IMG/VR virus record: IMGVR_UViG_3300042384_000423
Location: 1 to 45,367 of that record
Reading direction: 5' to 3' (one strand)
DNA: 45,367 bases
Source: a virus
Position 1 is the stretch's first letter, and each line of letters opens with the position of its first letter. A model generated the notes under the pieces. The model did no database searches, was not told the DNA's origin, and saw only the letters and a program-made list of their open reading frames with translations. This document shows positions 2,862-22,882 of this stretch, in pieces. The position numbers were made by a program, and so were the translations under genes.

Positions 2862-2886
2862 AAGAGAGCTGTAATGGCTCTCTTTT
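2862..2886 (+). terminator. Rho-independent terminator
   Basis: An 8-bp perfect stem AAGAGAGC (2862-2869) / GCTCTCTT (2877-2884) with a 7-base loop, followed by T residues. It closes the small-gene cluster. A potential ATG at 2874 lies in the hairpin, which argues against using it as the start of the next gene. Confidence 0.75.
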
Positions 2887-2897
2887 ATATCAAAGCT

Positions 2898-4214
2898 ATG
2901 AAACAATACAGATTTAAAAATGAACAAGAGTTTAAAGATGATGATTTTTGGAATGATGAATATGAATGCCCAGATAACTGGTCTGAAGAAGGTGATATGA
3001 ATGGTTATATGGGACAAGATGTTCCTGATAAATTCATTAAACTAATTGAGAAAGGTCATCCATTTACTTATGATAATTGGTTATTCCGAGCAAACAATTG
3101 TATTATCAAAGAAATAGAAGTAGTAAACGTAGAAGAAGTATTAGAACAAATTAAATTAAATAATTCCTTAATAACAAAAGAAAAAACAATGGCAACACAA
3201 GTAAAGAAATCAGCAAAAGCAAATCCAGTAGCAGAGAAGTTCGTATTTATGGACAAAACAGTTAACATTCTAAACGTAGGATTCCAAACATGTAAGAATG
3301 TTGTATTATATGGTCCAGGAGGACATGGTAAATCAGAAATGACACTTGATTTTCTAAAAGCAAAAGGTATTGAACCTTATGTTATTACAATGGGTACAGG
3401 TATGACTACAGACAGATTGTTTGGTGGTCTTGATATACCTATGTTTGAAAAGACAGGTAAAATAGAATATCTTGTAGAGAATTCATTTATGAATCATCCT
3501 TTTGTTATATTCGAAGAGATGTTTGATGCCCCTGATTTCATCTTAGAGCAATTAAAGGATATATTATCTAGTGGTACATTCAGAAATGGTACACAGATAT
3601 TTCCTATTGAAACTAAATTCATCATCTGTTGTACTAATAGAACTCGTGATGAATTCTCAAAGAATATGTCTTTGAAAGCATTGATGGAGAGATTTCCTCT
3701 TGAATTGAATGTTATCTGGGATAACTACACAGAGATCAGCTATAACAAATTACTAGAGAGTAAGTTTGGTGTAGATAATGTAGATCCAGTGATTCCTTAT
3801 TTGTTACAAGAGTATGCAAAGAATGGTATTACAATTAGTCCACGTGTTGCTGTAACAGCATATCAAGTGTATGACCAATGTGGACCAGAATCATTAAGCT
3901 TTATTGCTGAGTTCTCTAAGAAACCATCATTGATAGCTGAAGCTATTAAGAAGTTTGAGGCTACAATTAAGTTTAGAGATTTATCTGCAGCTCTTACATT
4001 CAGTATTGAAACTCTAACTCATTTACCATTGGTATCTAGAGATGATGAGAAGATGTATAAAGATGCTATTGGTGATCTTACTAAGCAATTAACAGACATC
4101 AAAGGATTAGCAGTGAGTGATGATATTGCACAAATACATTCACAATTAGTGAAAGCTGCTACACAAGCAAGTGAGAAGTTTACTAAGAGCCTTCAAATTG
4201 CTTCATTCATATAA
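2898..4214 (+). CDS. MoxR-type AAA+ ATPase with N-terminal extension
   Basis: 438 residues from ATG 2898. Residues 1-97 are an acidic domain not known from MoxR proteins. From about residue 98 (an internal ATG at 3189) the sequence is a MoxR-family AAA+ ATPase: Walker A GPGGHGKS near 139, Walker B VIFEEM near 203-208, sensor 1 CCTNRTRDEF. MoxR ATPases act with VWA proteins to remodel or mature other complexes, and the VWA partner follows with a TAATG overlap. The linker between the two parts is encoded by a leader-like TCCTTAATAACA (3165-3176), suggesting two genes fused in frame or an internal start at 3189. Confidence 0.85.
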   Translation: MKQYRFKNEQEFKDDDFWNDEYECPDNWSEEGDMNGYMGQDVPDKFIKLIEKGHPFTYDNWLFRANNCIIKEIEVVNVEEVLEQIKLNNSLITKEKTMATQVKKSAKANPVAEKFVFMDKTVNILNVGFQTCKNVVLYGPGGHGKSEMTLDFLKAKGIEPYVITMGTGMTTDRLFGGLDIPMFEKTGKIEYLVENSFMNHPFVIFEEMFDAPDFILEQLKDILSSGTFRNGTQIFPIETKFIICCTNRTRDEFSKNMSLKALMERFPLELNVIWDNYTEISYNKLLESKFGVDNVDPVIPYLLQEYAKNGITISPRVAVTAYQVYDQCGPESLSFIAEFSKKPSLIAEAIKKFEATIKFRDLSAALTFSIETLTHLPLVSRDDEKMYKDAIGDLTKQLTDIKGLAVSDDIAQIHSQLVKAATQASEKFTKSLQIASFI

Positions 4215-5605
4215 TGGCAAGTTTATGGGATAATGGGTATGATGATTACTACGGTGATTATTATGCCCCTTCCTATACTCCTAAGAAGAGTAGTGGAGGC
4301 TGGAAAAGTAAATATGGTGGTAGTGGATGGTCCAAGAGTTCTTGGTCTAATTTCTCATATGTTGTATCATATGAGGATAATGATGAAGATCTATTTGTTA
4401 AAGATCCAGTTAACTATTTAACACCAAGTGCTAAAGACATCAAAGCTAAGGTGAGAGGTGTTAAGAAGCAAGAATCTATTGATTTGATCAAAGAGTTAGC
4501 ACGTGTGTGTTATTTCAAGATGATTGATGAAACAGAATATGTAGCTGATAAGTATAAAGATGTAGATAACCTAGCTGATGAAGACAAAGGAGAATATGCA
4601 AAAAAGAAACCTTTATTTGATTCTGTGTATCAACAATATGTTCCAGGATTTACACCTCTTGAACAAGCTATTGCTATCTATCTGAAGCTTAAAGAATCTC
4701 CTACTGGAGAAAGAAGTGAAGATGATGATGATGAAGAAACAGATACAAGTAAATCATTTGATTTTGATAGAAGTCTTTATTCTGATCCAAATATCAATGA
4801 ACAATTAGATCTTAATGAACTAAGTAAGGATAAGAAGATGGAGATTATGAATCACATATCTCTTGTTGGTAAGTTTGGTAGTGAGTTTAAAGTGGAGAAA
4901 GAGATATCTGAGAAGATAGTGGCTAATTCTGATCAATATGCAACAATGATTATGAGAGATTATGCTCAAATACACATGATGCCATTATATCAGAAGATGT
5001 TTCCTAATTTTAGAACTAAATTCTTAACTAAAGATTTGACAGTGAATGTTCCTGTTGATAGAAAAGAACAGATTCAGAAGATCATCATTCTATTAGATTA
5101 TTCTGGTAGTATGTGTGAAGAACAAAAACAGATTTGGGTAAATGCTATATTAATAGACAGATTCAAGTATGTAATGAGAGGTGAAGCTGAAGTGTTCTTT
5201 AGTTATTTTGTACATGATCCAGAACAATTAGACTTCCAACATATAAAGAATAGAGAAGATGTAATTGCATTTTGGCAAACATTCTCTAATAGTCCTAATG
5301 GTGGAGGAACAGAAGTTGGTGATATGGTTGAACATGTAGCTAAAGAGATAGCTGATCGTAAACTTCACAATCTTGATATTGATTTATCAGAAGAGAAGCC
5401 AGAGATATTAATTATCAATGATGGTCAGGATTCTATAAATAGTGAGAAGTTTCCTTATAAAGTGAATGCCATATCATTAATGCAATTTAGTGATGAGTTA
5501 AAAGATCTTTGTCTTGATACAGATGGTAAACAGATTAAGGTGACAGAAGACTTGCAAGTGTTCAGCTATGCTAAAGATGTAGGTGAACAACAGATTAAAT
5601 TATAA
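4214..5605 (+). CDS. VWA-domain protein, partner of MoxR ATPase
   Basis: 463 residues. The N-terminus is rich in Gly, Ser, Tyr and Trp (residues 1-50, low complexity), followed by a helical domain and an acidic linker. The C-terminal von Willebrand factor A domain has the MIDAS motif DYSGS (Asp295, Ser297, Ser299), a downstream GGGTEVGD Thr motif and INDGQDS. CoxE/VWA-type proteins bind a metal and couple MoxR ATPases to their targets. The TAATG overlap with the MoxR gene shows paired expression. The target in phage infection is unknown. Confidence 0.85.
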   Translation: MASLWDNGYDDYYGDYYAPSYTPKKSSGGWKSKYGGSGWSKSSWSNFSYVVSYEDNDEDLFVKDPVNYLTPSAKDIKAKVRGVKKQESIDLIKELARVCYFKMIDETEYVADKYKDVDNLADEDKGEYAKKKPLFDSVYQQYVPGFTPLEQAIAIYLKLKESPTGERSEDDDDEETDTSKSFDFDRSLYSDPNINEQLDLNELSKDKKMEIMNHISLVGKFGSEFKVEKEISEKIVANSDQYATMIMRDYAQIHMMPLYQKMFPNFRTKFLTKDLTVNVPVDRKEQIQKIIILLDYSGSMCEEQKQIWVNAILIDRFKYVMRGEAEVFFSYFVHDPEQLDFQHIKNREDVIAFWQTFSNSPNGGGTEVGDMVEHVAKEIADRKLHNLDIDLSEEKPEILIINDGQDSINSEKFPYKVNAISLMQFSDELKDLCLDTDGKQIKVTEDLQVFSYAKDVGEQQIKL

Positions 5606-5653: not shown

Positions 5654-5838
5654 ATATTGTATAATCACTGGGGACTATAAACGCCAAATAGCAGTTTAAA
5701 TAGTCAATGTATGTGCTGCGTATCATTGAACTTACCTATATTATGCATATTATGAGTTTAGAACTCACTAGAGTGATACAAAAAGAATAGGGAAGCTGAA
5801 AACTATATAGAGTAGGCACAAAATTAAACCAATGAACA
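5654..5838 (+). other. Structured untranslated leader
   Basis: No gene is seen between the promoter and ATG 5839. The transcript would contain several short inverted repeats, including CAATG...CATTG and GAGTT-TAG-AACTC at about 5755-5767. A long leader of this kind could be regulatory. No known riboswitch was recognised. Confidence 0.35.
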
Positions 5839-6021
5839 ATGAAGTATCTAATAAGTATAGTCTTTACGTTCTTATCTGTATTAGCCTTTATGAAACTATT
5901 GTTTCTATTGAATAAGGGCAATACTGTTGCAAATGTTTTTGCTATAGTAGGTATATTCTTATTGGGATATATAATTGCAAGAACAAAGTTATTTACACAA
6001 TTAAAATCAAAGAAAAAATGA
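5839..6021 (+). CDS. Small two-helix membrane protein
   Basis: 60 residues. Two hydrophobic helices at about 2-22 and 30-50 joined by a short Asn/Gly loop, with a basic C-terminus (KLFTQLKSKKK) suggesting a cytoplasmic end. Its stop overlaps the start of the SPFH lipoprotein by four bases, so the two are probably made together at the membrane. Function unknown. Confidence 0.55.
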   Translation: MKYLISIVFTFLSVLAFMKLLFLLNKGNTVANVFAIVGIFLLGYIIARTKLFTQLKSKKK

Positions 6022-7346: not shown

Positions 7347-7679
7347 GGGGGTGACTGGAATTGACTGGTTATTATAGATTATACAATTCAGCCAGAGAGA
7401 TAACTGTAAACTAAGGTGAATTTAATTTAAATGGCAAAAACACAAATGGTGTAGTGGCTCTAGGAGCAAACGCACAAATCGAAGCTAATATGAACAAAGT
7501 ATTCTCATTATTGAATGAGGATGTAATAGTTGGTTTAGCAGCCTAAATTACCTCAAGATTTCTCTATTAGATTAAATAGAGTGGTGGGAACGTTAAGCTA
7601 AGCTTGACCCTAAATAAGCTGTATAAAATTGTATTTTTGAAGTAAGCAACACGGGAGTTCGAATCTCCCCACCTCCACA
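7347..7679 (+). ncRNA. ssrA: Transfer-messenger RNA (tmRNA)
   Basis: The ends fold as a tRNA-like domain: GGGGGTG (7347-7353) pairs over 7 bp with CACCTCC (7670-7676), one G-U pair, followed by discriminator A. A perfect T-arm GGGAG-TTCGAAT-CTCCC lies at 7653-7669. The 5' part TGACTGGAATTGACTGG has the form of the tmRNA D-loop region. ATACAATT (7381-7388) pairs with AATTGTAT (7627-7634) as helix P2. The likely tag frame, 7433-7546, begins GKNTN, ends GLAA then TAA, and is about 37 residues, much longer than the usual 8-15. The encoded end is ACA, so CCA would need completion. tmRNA rescues stalled ribosomes and tags proteins for degradation. The resume codon is inferred. Confidence 0.88.
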
Positions 7680-7836
7680 GCAGTTACTTGACGCAAATAG
7701 CACAGTAACAGACATTGGATAGTTTGCACATCACGAATGTTAAGTCCTTTCCACGCAGAGAAGGAGTTGAGTACTTATAGAGAAGAAATGTTCCTAATCT
7801 CAACAATTGACATCTCCCAAGGGAGAAGGTCCTATT
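7680..7836 (+). other. Structured non-coding region downstream of tmRNA
   Basis: About 160 bases with no gene. Short stems are visible: GTTACT / AGTAAC at about 7683-7711, CCTT...AAGG at about 7747-7769, and CTCCC-AA-GGGAG at 7813-7824. It may be a 3' trailer removed during tmRNA maturation or part of a further RNA. Confidence 0.35.
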
Positions 7837-8337: not shown

Positions 8338-9003
8338 ATGAAAAATATAAAAATATACAAACTGCTAGATCCTATAACTAATGAGATTAGATACATAGGT
8401 AAAACCAAAAATGACTTATCACTAAGATATAGTCAACATATTGCTAGAGCAAAACAAGGACATGATTCACATGTTTATTCTTGGATAAGTAAGTTATTAA
8501 AAGATAATTTAAGACCAACAATAGAACTAATTGAAGAATGTACTGAAAATAACTGGGAAGAAAGAGAACAATATTGGATTTCTTTTTATCCTAACTTAAC
8601 TAATATATCAAAAGGTGGTATAACTTATTTTGGTGAATACCATAAAAGATCTGATTTTGTATCATCTGTTATAAAAAAAGTTATCAAGTATGATATTAAT
8701 GGAGATTTTGTTTGTGTCTATGATTCAATAACAATTGCATCAGAAGGAAATAAAAGTTTAAGAAAACATATTTCAAATTGCTGTAGTAACAAAAGACAAT
8801 CTGCTGGTGGATTTCAATGGAGATACCATACAGAAGATTATTCTTTAAAAATAGAACCTTATGTTAAAAGATTGTCTAGTACTATATTAAAAAAAGGACA
8901 TACTATGAATAAAGGTAAATCATTAAGTGATAAACATAAACAAAATTTATCATTAAGCCATATTGGTAAAACTTATAAAAAACAAAAAAATGACAAAAAT
9001 TAA
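8338..9003 (+). CDS. GIY-YIG homing endonuclease with NUMOD motifs
   Basis: 221 residues. The N-terminal GIY-YIG domain reads IYKLLDP...RYIGKT (residues 6-23) with catalytic Arg30 and an acidic WEEREQYW helix near 73-80 supplying the Glu. Residues about 115-160 look like a NUMOD1-type DNA-binding repeat ending GGFQWRYH, and the tail KGKSLSDKHKQNLSLSHIGK is a NUMOD3 motif. It is probably a free-standing homing endonuclease. A -7 element TATATTTG at 8326-8333 lies four bases before the ATG, so the mRNA may be leaderless. Its 3' end overlaps the intact zinc-ribbon gene; a broken copy of that gene lies upstream. Confidence 0.88.
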   Translation: MKNIKIYKLLDPITNEIRYIGKTKNDLSLRYSQHIARAKQGHDSHVYSWISKLLKDNLRPTIELIEECTENNWEEREQYWISFYPNLTNISKGGITYFGEYHKRSDFVSSVIKKVIKYDINGDFVCVYDSITIASEGNKSLRKHISNCCSNKRQSAGGFQWRYHTEDYSLKIEPYVKRLSSTILKKGHTMNKGKSLSDKHKQNLSLSHIGKTYKKQKNDKN

Positions 9004-18520: not shown

Positions 18521-18552
18521 TTTGGTAGTTTGTAAAAGATACCGTAACTTTG
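18521..18552 (+). promoter_or_regulatory. Promoter of GIY-YIG gene
   Basis: TTTG at 18521-18524, 20 bases, TAACTTTG at 18545-18552. It lies just after the helicase stop and 17 bases before the endonuclease ATG, so the inserted gene carries its own promoter. Confidence 0.65.
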
Positions 18553-18569
18553 TAATAAAATTTTATATT

Positions 18570-19259
18570 ATGAAGATAGGTATCGTTTACACACTCTCAC
18601 ATCCTATAACTAAAAAAGTTGTATACATAGGAAAAACAATCCATACATTAAAAGATAGATTATACGGTCATATTGGTGACAGTAAAAGGTATAATAGAAA
18701 AATCTGTAAATGGATAAGTAAATTAACTTCTGAAGGATTACTTCCATTAATTGAAGAATTAGACTCTTCATCTGAGAAAGATTTAGCTAGATTAGAAATA
18801 TTCTATATTGAGCTATTTAAAACTTGGGGATTTGACTTAAAAAATCATACTAATGGTGGAGAAGGATTGATAGGTTTTAATCATTCAGAAAAATCAAAAA
18901 GATTAATGTCTATGAAAAGAATTGGAGAGAAAAATTCTTTTTATAATAAAACTCACACACAAGAGACAAAAGATAAAATATCATTATCTAAAAAAGGTAA
19001 AAAAATGTCTGAGGAGTTTTGTAAAAAAAGAAGTGACTACATGAAAGCAAATCCTGTAACAAAAGAAACTTATCAAAAGATAGCAGAAATCAATAAAATA
19101 AAAATTGGTCAATATGATCTTGATATGAATATTATAAAGATACATGATTCAGCTGCAGATGCATGTAGAGATATGCCTGAGTTATCAACTGGACACATAT
19201 GTAGTTGTTGTAAAGGTAAAAGAAAGACACACAAAGGGTTTGTGTGGAAGTATTATTAA
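18570..19259 (+). CDS. GIY-YIG homing endonuclease with NUMOD motifs
   Basis: 229 residues from ATG 18570; an upstream in-frame start would lie inside the promoter. The GIY-YIG domain has VYTLSHP...VYIGKT (6-23), Arg30 and ARLEIFYIELF supplying the acidic residue. NUMOD3-like motifs follow (FNHSEKSKRLMSMKRIG; THTQETKDKISLSKKGKKMS), then a NUMOD1-like domain ending GFVWKYY. It sits between the helicase gene and a relic of the helicase 3' end. Confidence 0.88.
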   Translation: MKIGIVYTLSHPITKKVVYIGKTIHTLKDRLYGHIGDSKRYNRKICKWISKLTSEGLLPLIEELDSSSEKDLARLEIFYIELFKTWGFDLKNHTNGGEGLIGFNHSEKSKRLMSMKRIGEKNSFYNKTHTQETKDKISLSKKGKKMSEEFCKKRSDYMKANPVTKETYQKIAEINKIKIGQYDLDMNIIKIHDSAADACRDMPELSTGHICSCCKGKRKTHKGFVWKYY

Positions 19260-20395: not shown

Positions 20396-20427
20396 TTTGT
20401 ATATTAAAAAGGAATGTTATATCTTTG
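20396..20427 (+). promoter_or_regulatory. Promoter of GIY-YIG gene
   Basis: TTTG 20396-20399, 20 bases, TATCTTTG 20420-20427, a full match to the Bacteroidota consensus. The expected transcription start falls on or next to ATG 20432, so the transcript is probably leaderless. An ATG at 20414 lies within the promoter and is rejected as start. Confidence 0.7.
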
Positions 20428-20431
20428 TCAT

Positions 20432-21226
20432 ATGAAAATAGATATAGCCCTTAGAAAAGTGACTGGTATATATAAAATTACCAACACTGTAAACAATAAA
20501 TCATATGTAGGAAGTTCTGTTGATGTATATCAAAGAGGATGTATGTATAAGCACTTAATCAAAAGAAAGAAGTTACATAACAAACATTTACAGTCAGCTG
20601 TAGAGAAGTATGGATATGATAATTTTACATTTGAAGTGTTAGATAAGTGTGAAGAAGGTACATCTGTTTTTGATTTGCATCAATTAGAACAATCTTACAT
20701 AAACAAAATTAATCCTGAGTACAATAAAAGAACTGTTGTAGACACAAATCATTTACTTTCACATTCTCAAGAAACTAAAGATAAAATATCTAATAGTTTG
20801 AAAGAATCTTTTAAGAATGGTAGTAAAGTTATCAATCGTATACAAGAACATAATATAAAAGTTAGTCTATTTGATCTATCTGGAAATCATATTCAAGATT
20901 TTCCAGGATTAGCTCATTGTGCTGATTTTGTAGGAGTGAAGTATCAGAGCGTAACTTTTGCTATAAACAGTGAAAGAAGAAGAGTTAAGAATTACATAGT
21001 GCTACGTACAGAGGAATCTAATTTGGTAAAAGATTTTCTAAACATACCTAAATTAAATTATGCTAAAAAAGTTACAGTTCTAGATATAATTACAAATGAG
21101 ACATTACAATTTATTAATTGTAAACTGTGTGCAGAATTTATAAATTGTAAACCAACAACTGTAAAAAAATGTTATGAGAATGGTAAAATTTGGAAAAACA
21201 AATACAAAATAATAAACTATGAGTAA
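20432..21226 (+). CDS. GIY-YIG homing endonuclease
   Basis: 264 residues. The GIY-YIG domain has GIYKITN...SYVGSS near residues 12-29, an Arg at QRG, and the acidic residue in LHQLEQSYI. A helical middle contains a NUMOD3-like piece (SHSQETKDKISNSLKESF), followed by NUMOD1-like repeats. It overlaps the intact helicase start by eight bases, so endonuclease and helicase are translated together. It stands between the broken and intact 5' ends of that helicase. Confidence 0.85.
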   Translation: MKIDIALRKVTGIYKITNTVNNKSYVGSSVDVYQRGCMYKHLIKRKKLHNKHLQSAVEKYGYDNFTFEVLDKCEEGTSVFDLHQLEQSYINKINPEYNKRTVVDTNHLLSHSQETKDKISNSLKESFKNGSKVINRIQEHNIKVSLFDLSGNHIQDFPGLAHCADFVGVKYQSVTFAINSERRRVKNYIVLRTEESNLVKDFLNIPKLNYAKKVTVLDIITNETLQFINCKLCAEFINCKPTTVKKCYENGKIWKNKYKIINYE

Positions 21227-22334
21227 AAGTTTAAGAGATATTAGACAAGCAGAATTTGCAAAAGCTTGGATAGATAAAGGAAAGAAGGGTATAATTTACG
21301 CTTGTCCAAGGTTTGGCAAGATAAGAACTAGTATATTAATATTAAAACAACTTCCTAAAAAAAGTCTTAGTTATACGAATGCAACAGTTTCTCCTTCAGT
21401 ATTGATTGCATATCCAGACAATAAGATTAAAGAATCTTGGCAATCTGATTTTGATGATCTTGGATATGATGATAGTAATGTCACATACACAACACATTTA
21501 TCATTAAAGAAGTTAGTAGACAATGAGTATGATATTATTATTATAGATGAGATACATCTATTGAGTGAAGCTCAAATAGAAGTGTGTAAGGACCTGTTCA
21601 GTAACAATGGACAGGTTCTTGGTCTCACTGGTACATTAGCCAGTGATACAGAAAGAACCCTTGAAGAAGAATTAGATCTTCATGTAGTAGCAACTTATCC
21701 AATTGAAAAAGCGATTGAAGAAGGTGTGATTGTAGATTATGAGATACATGTTATTAAAGTGCCTCTTGACAATCTTGTATATAATGATTACAAAGGAAAA
21801 CTTAAGACAGAGAAGAAACACTATGATGGATTATCTTGGGTAATCAATAAACTTCAGAATAGTGGATCAGACACTATGTTCATGCGTCTTGCAAGAATGA
21901 GACTTATTCAATCATCTTTAGCTAAAACTAATGCTACGAAAAAGCTATTAGCTAAACATAAAGATGAGAGAGTGTTAGTATTCTGTGGCACCACTGCTGT
22001 AGCAGATAGTCTTGGTATTCCTTCCTATCATAATAAGTCTAAAGAAAAACAAGTCTTTGAAGACTTTGCTGAAGGAGAAGGTAATCATCTAGCTGTTGTA
22101 AAGATTGGTAATACAGGTGTTACATTTTCAAAGTTAAATAGAGTTATAATAAATTCTTTTGATTCAAATCCTGAAAATCTTACACAAAGAATATTTAGAT
22201 GTATGGCAATGGATTATGATAATTTAGAAAAAAAAGCGTATATTTACATTGTTACTACAACAGAACCTATTGAATTAACATGGCTTTCAAGAGCCTTAGA
22301 TCTGTTTGATAAAGATAAAATATTTTACTCATGA
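21219..22334 (+). CDS. Superfamily 2 DNA helicase
   Basis: 371 residues. Motif I is CPRFGKIRTS (Lys34 present, but Ile35 where Thr or Ser is usual), motif II DEIH (110-113), motif III LTGTLAS, and C-terminal motifs V (GNTGVTFSKLNRVI) and VI (LTQRIFRCM). It resembles the UvsW/SNF2-like helicases of phages that act in recombination-dependent replication. The first 30 residues are a replacement version relative to the relic at 20287. GIY-YIG genes flank it on both sides. Confidence 0.82.
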   Translation: MSKSLRDIRQAEFAKAWIDKGKKGIIYACPRFGKIRTSILILKQLPKKSLSYTNATVSPSVLIAYPDNKIKESWQSDFDDLGYDDSNVTYTTHLSLKKLVDNEYDIIIIDEIHLLSEAQIEVCKDLFSNNGQVLGLTGTLASDTERTLEEELDLHVVATYPIEKAIEEGVIVDYEIHVIKVPLDNLVYNDYKGKLKTEKKHYDGLSWVINKLQNSGSDTMFMRLARMRLIQSSLAKTNATKKLLAKHKDERVLVFCGTTAVADSLGIPSYHNKSKEKQVFEDFAEGEGNHLAVVKIGNTGVTFSKLNRVIINSFDSNPENLTQRIFRCMAMDYDNLEKKAYIYIVTTTEPIELTWLSRALDLFDKDKIFYS

Positions 22335-22882
22335 TTATATGCATCTATACAATAACCAATAAAGTAAATGGTAAACTTTATGTAGGAAAAACTATTAATT
22401 TTTTAAATAGAATGTCTAAACATAAATATACTTTAAGAAAAAATATTCATATAAATGAACATCTTCAACGTGCTTTTAATAAGTATGGAGAAGAATCATT
22501 TGATTTTGAAATTCTTGAAGAATGCAATGAAGAGTATTTATACTCTCAAGAACATTATTGGTGTAATTTATTAGATGCATTTAATTACAATAAAGGCTAT
22601 AATATGAAACCTACACATCCATTAAATAAATCTGGAAATAGTGTAGAAGCAATTGCAAAGACTAAAAAAGCTCTAACTGGTAAAAAATTATCTCCAGAAC
22701 ACAGATTAAAGCTATCTTTAGCAAAACAAGGTAGAAAATTATCAGATGAAACGAAGTTAAAAATGTCTCAAGCTAGTAAAGGCAATAAGAAATCTGAAGA
22801 ACATAAACAAAAAATCTCAGAAGCTAAAAAAGGAGACAAAAATCCTAGATTCGGTAAAATACCTTGGAATAAAAAGATATAA
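22331..22882 (+). CDS. GIY-YIG homing endonuclease with NUMOD3 repeats
   Basis: 183 residues. GIY-YIG domain at the N-terminus (CIYTITNKVNGKLYVGKT, Arg near 28, and EHYW supplying the Glu), followed by three or four NUMOD3-type repeats (KKLSPEHRLKLSLAKQG; RKLSDETKLKMSQASKG; KKSEEHKQKISEAKKG). It overlaps the helicase stop by four bases and has no promoter of its own. No relic of the helicase 3' end could be recognised after it. Confidence 0.85.
   Translation: MIICIYTITNKVNGKLYVGKTINFLNRMSKHKYTLRKNIHINEHLQRAFNKYGEESFDFEILEECNEEYLYSQEHYWCNLLDAFNYNKGYNMKPTHPLNKSGNSVEAIAKTKKALTGKKLSPEHRLKLSLAKQGRKLSDETKLKMSQASKGNKKSEEHKQKISEAKKGDKNPRFGKIPWNKKI

Follow-up and report, generated by a model that had tools for sequence, protein, structure and literature searches.

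A phage-encoded tmRNA with a 37-residue tag whose core is conserved as protein

A viral contig of 45,367 bases, analysed over its whole length and called the window here, carries a single tmRNA gene (ssrA) with an unusually long tag of 37 residues. The tag belongs to a family found in phages, and its core evolves as protein. Trans-translation tags are usually treated as short degrons, and conservation of the long tag across more than 100 phage contigs suggests that phages use it beyond the usual degradation signal. The reading we favor, with a probability of roughly 0.55, is that of a functional phage tmRNA that combines ribosome rescue with helix-mediated docking of the tag on a host factor and a C-terminal xAA degron.

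The gene was identified by an Rfam covariance search, in which the full bacterial tmRNA model (RF00023) matched positions 7347-7680 (+) at 56.6 bits (cut-off 47; E 1.1e-19), the only tmRNA that Rfam finds in the window. An earlier note on this DNA had proposed a phage-encoded tmRNA with intact tRNA-like ends, T-arm and P2 helix, and both proposals are borne out. The acceptor stem is fully paired (Table 1), its third pair is G-U in 28/28 aligned phage tmRNAs, and two-sided compensatory changes are found in the acceptor stem, T-arm and P2 in the alignment of 28 phage relatives. With G3-U70 and the acceptor and T-arm helices kept, charging, which the note also expected, appears plausible from the sequence, with alanine as the amino acid. 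The encoded CCA is incomplete (CAG follows A73), and CCA addition by the host is therefore needed. The RF00023 match is colinear, which fits neither a circularly permuted tmRNA nor one interrupted by a T-loop group I intron. The tRNA-like domain and its G3-U70, the T-arm and P2 are shared with bacterial ssrA, as are a resume codon, a tag frame and a stop, but the window RNA differs in its 37-residue tag, in the sequence of PK1 and in an element following the tag (element E). The PK1 region is conserved; the fit to RF00023 is poor between the tag and the P2 3' strand because the phage post-tag structure differs there.

Table 1. Features of the tmRNA gene in the window
Feature	Position	Strand	Basis
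tmRNA (ssrA) gene, standard one-piece form	7347-7680	+	RF00023, 56.6 bits; covariation, 28 relatives
Acceptor stem 5' strand GGGGGUG, G3 at 7349	7347-7353	+	pairs with 7670-7676
P2 helix 5' strand	7365-7392	+	pairs covarying with 7618-7649
PK1-region signature CAGAGAGATAACTG..AAACTAAGGTGAA	7393-7420	+	phage-only; at least 120 IMG/VR stretches
Tag frame: GGC as resume codon behind TAAAT, 37 codons, stop UAA	7433-7546	+	
Conserved tag core AQIEANMNKVFSLL, predicted amphipathic helix	7472-7513	+	invariant residues, pN/pS, AlphaFold2
Degron-like C-terminal end GLAA	7532-7543	+	AA end in 81/87 distinct tags
Element E after tag stop: GAUUU, 7-bp hairpin, UGGUGG, second hairpin	7557-7608	+	covariation
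P2 helix 3' strand	7618-7649	+	covariation with 5' strand
T-arm GGGAG-UUCGAAU-CUCCC	7653-7669	+	covarying pairs
Acceptor stem 3' strand, U70 (7674) and discriminator A73 (7677)	7670-7677	+	sequence

Element E has the form GAUUU-(7-bp stem, loop AGAUUA)-UGGUGG. Covariation in its first stem is strong, with 47 two-sided cells (0/500 shuffles), and the stem is 100% paired, a value due in part to selection, because the retrieval pattern fixed parts of the loop and flank and stemless instances were filtered out. It lies within tmRNAs of Bacteroidota phages, that of the window included, and further copies are at L359:4081-4101, L391:9422 and L009:3015. The element also occurs outside tmRNAs, between tRNA-Arg and tmRNA in Lactococcus 949-type phages and, in other phage contigs, behind protein genes just past their stop codons, several of these copies preceding a terminator-like hairpin. 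One copy from outside a tmRNA was searched against Rfam and had no significant match.

The resume position of the tag was set by homology with the host sequence (TAAAC followed by GGC GAG AAU AAC) and with phage relatives. The frame translates as the earlier note gave it, into GKNTNGVVALGANAQIEANMNKVFSLLNEDVIVGLAA (7433-7543, 37 residues, stop at 7544-7546). Known tmRNA tags span 8-35 residues across species (PMC8012679), the commonest length being 10 (PMC11915505). Flavobacteriaceae-type host tags, selected by pattern, are GENNYALAA and close variants, and among 50 tmRNA loci in a sample of Flavobacteriales genomes, 47 have tags of 8-10 residues, one is an evident ARAGORN miscall and two were uncalled. 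The phage tag is about four times as long as the host tag (37 residues against 9 in the sampled Flavobacteriales, G..NYALAA). The Flavobacteriales tmRNA, with tag G(E/N)xN(Y/F)ALAA, resembles that of the phage in its Gly resume codon after TAAAC/T and its C-terminal AA, but the core helix and the phage PK1 signature are missing from it.

BLAST located similar sequences in phages of Flavobacterium and Cellulophaga, and from relatives isolated on these genera the host of the window phage is probably a member of Bacteroidota; the DNA polymerase of the window is about 33% identical to those of the isolates. IMG/VR was scanned by the PK1 signature (at least 120 stretches) and by a degenerate core (107 stretches). 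Together the scans gave at least 134 instances of long-tag tmRNAs, a few of them cut by contig ends, in a set that was sampled by patterns and in which one PK1 signature and metagenomic contigs are over-represented. Among the matches listed are 87 distinct complete tag coding sequences of 24-49 codons, all in frame and differing in length by whole codons only, with GGC, GGA or GAC as resume codon. The core Q-x-x-ANM-x-x-V-x-x-L-L, taken as Q-x(0-3)-ANM-xx-[VA]-xx-[ILM][ILM], is present in 86 of the 87 and missing from one outlier (L040). The tags end in AA (81), VA (5) or VGV (1, Calle). Isolates with this tag come from Fipvunavirus (FpV4), Pervagoviridae (Calle, phi38:1) and Crassvirales (phi14:2, a crAss-like phage), three groups unrelated to one another. 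Read from the homologous resume codon, the tags are GNTNNSVVSLEDNAQVEANMNMAFSLIREDVAVAA in FpV4, GNNTNAVNAQIEANMEAVNAILNLEVAVGV in Calle and phi40:1, and GNDTDNTQLKANMTVVHNILNGSDALIGSSVQKLAMVA in phi14:2.

Outside tmRNA tags the core was found in 0 cases in 3.2 Mb of loci; its occurrence in other phage proteins was considered and rejected, the 11 matches without the PK1 signature all reading as further tmRNA tags. The PK1 signature had 0 exact matches in 84,980 cellular genomes, the lineage therefore belongs to phages, and a host origin was rejected; a plasmid search also gave no match. A PF00005 search gave sub-threshold matches only and enters no argument here. These tmRNAs are under-annotated, since gene finders overlook them or put them in the wrong place. 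ARAGORN made no tmRNA call anywhere in the window and misplaced the Calle resume codon, and was not adopted as tag caller. The annotated tmRNA of Calle_1 is of the same family, with the same core, as that of the window, but the public annotation misplaces the gene, by about 52 bases (MT732432.1 43002-43361), and the start of the tag (ARAGORN AQIEANM..., where homology gives GNNTNAVNAQIEANMEAVNAILNLEVAVGV). On the strand opposite the phi40:1 tmRNA a hypothetical protein is annotated (KC821612.1 26909-27082).

Other phage-encoded tmRNAs are known from mycobacteriophages, Lactococcus 949-type phages and the OM43 phage Melnitz. The tag of Lactococcus phage PMBT69, ANTQLAVA, has 8 residues, unlike the long window tag, and the Melnitz tmRNA is two-piece, unlike that of the window. 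We found no report of long conserved tags in these three groups, and no paper on long phage tags, in the open-access literature. Long tags are also present in six phage tmRNAs without the PK1 signature (L361, L382, L356, L374, L355, L376); most of these tags differ in sequence, as do GKNIISKVLGKAQSLRNTIANIFAPREEFALAIA and DEMSTMTFDSLMEFVGANEYALAA, and their resume codons are uncertain. The uncultured crAss-like phage cr128_1 has an unannotated tmRNA (L006:2703-4019) with the short tag GNTYRAAA and a T-loop apparently interrupted by a group I intron of about 870 bases, the 5' part ending in GACGAGGGTT and the 3' part being CGAATCCCTCATGCTCCA at 4001.

The frame of the tag is under purifying selection. 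Over the core, pooled pN/pS is 0.40 in frame (bootstrap 0.37-0.42), while the two other frames give 1.01 and 1.20, and the final three codons have 0.33 in frame and 1.87 and 1.32 out of frame; these values, counted pairwise over 80 distinct sequences not chosen by tag pattern (L040 left out) and ignoring the tree, describe the frame contrast and are not a formal test. Q15, A18, N19 and M20 of the tag are invariant (A1), and Q, ANM and V are near-invariant across the family while third positions vary: Ala is encoded by GCT/GCA/GCC/GCG, Asn by AAC/AAT, Val by GTA/GTT/GTG and Leu by TTA/TTG/CTA/CTT. AlphaFold2 predicts a helix over residues 10-36 in 50 tags with moderate confidence (pLDDT about 84 over 11-30, mean 72); the aligned tags, searched as a profile against the PDB, gave no match.

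The mechanism we propose would begin with charging of the tmRNA by AlaRS via G3-U70. Host SmpB and EF-Tu would then deliver it to ribosomes that have stalled on an mRNA cut or degraded in the course of infection, and translation would shift to the GGC resume codon; these three steps follow from the anatomy together with established tmRNA biology. The stuck protein would gain the long tag, that is, the amphipathic helix with the core QIxANMxxVxxLL and the C-terminal xAA degron; conservation of the tag core and end at the protein level underlies this step. Finally, we infer, the core may dock on a host factor conserved in Flavobacteriaceae, such as an AAA+ protease or adaptor, and the protein would be degraded, returning the ribosome to phage protein synthesis. 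The end of the window tag, GLAA, fits the ssrA-type ClpXP degron (C-terminal hydrophobic-Ala-Ala), but VGV, the end in Calle, is a poor match to known ClpX degrons and counts against the degradation step. SmpB is absent from 29 phage records with this tmRNA and present in a host control; host SmpB is therefore needed, and host trans-translation must drive the tmRNA, with AlaRS, EF-Tu and proteases likewise supplied by the host.

The docking partner could instead be encoded by the phage, an adaptor or assembly factor through which tagged proteins would be selectively degraded, protected or relocated rather than passed to ordinary host proteolysis. A tag so strongly conserved and wholly unlike the host G..NYALAA is what this alternative has in its favor, but we consider it rather unlikely. 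The phages have no SspB and no convincing ClpP (one sub-threshold match). In comparisons of six phage genomes and the window, made by blastp only, so that a very divergent adaptor could escape, no ORF of the relative G012 occurs in all three of FpV4, Calle and phi14:2, and no Calle protein is shared with FpV4 or G012. The Calle core is nearly identical to that of FpV4 and G012 all the same, which speaks for a host partner, or for a property inherent in the helix, rather than for a partner encoded by the phage.

It is also unlikely that this is an ordinary tmRNA whose extra length serves as a longer unstructured lead or exit-tunnel filler, with no specific partner. Degradation-defective tags still support survival, rescue being the main benefit (PMC8012679), and the linker from core to tag end varies freely in length and sequence; both points favor this reading. 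However, purifying selection at the amino acid level focused on Q, ANM, V and L is not expected of a spacer. An ATG encodes the core Met in each of the 81 distinct aligned sequences. It follows an A-rich AAY and could be an internal start from which the frame also yields a free micropeptide, MNKVFSLLNEDVIVGLAA. This we hold to be very improbable, since the codons for Q, A and N upstream of the AUG change synonymously while the residues themselves are kept, and the frame stays open all along from the resume codon.

A tRNA-like-only RNA resembling that of mycobacteriophage DS6A inhibits tmRNA (PMC4131195), and an inactive or decoy RNA, with SmpB titrated away and host trans-translation blocked in the way suggested for DS6A, would be a still more remote reading here, as DS6A has no tag and the window-type tag frame and end are under selection. 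The suggestion in the earlier note that the internal VALGA is the end of a shorter ancestral tag, extended by readthrough or loss of a stop codon, did not hold up and is scarcely credible: the likeness to ALAA is superficial, no relative has a stop there, and the segment is a lineage-specific N-terminal extension (VVALGA, VVSLGD or VVSQGD in relatives, or missing, the tag then passing directly from G[KN] to the shared core) upstream of a core common to nearly all.

Returning to the favored reading, docking on a host factor, a phage-only lineage with a selected long tag and no other detectable shared genes points to a specific host partner. We tentatively suggest, below even odds, that the long tag is a peptide module evolved by phages, and that its conserved helix subjects stalled proteins to a fate not conferred by the host tag, be it capture by one specific AAA+ protease or chaperone of the host, inhibition of that protease or chaperone, or relocation. 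If so, phages would rewrite protein addresses through trans-translation, beyond ribosome rescue. With phi38:1 and Calle, which are cultured on Cellulophaga, the question can already be put to the test.

Elsewhere in the window, 2874-5605 encodes a MoxR-type AAA ATPase followed by a probable vWA-type protein, the latter having no Pfam match. A DUF805b RNA matches in Rfam at 5786-5818 (38.3 bits, cut-off 35.6), about 200 bases before an SPFH/band-7 gene at 6018. GIY-YIG-like homing-endonuclease ORFs lie at 8338-9003, which has a Pfam match, and at 18522-19259, 20414-21226 and 22331-22882, judged by their sequence only.
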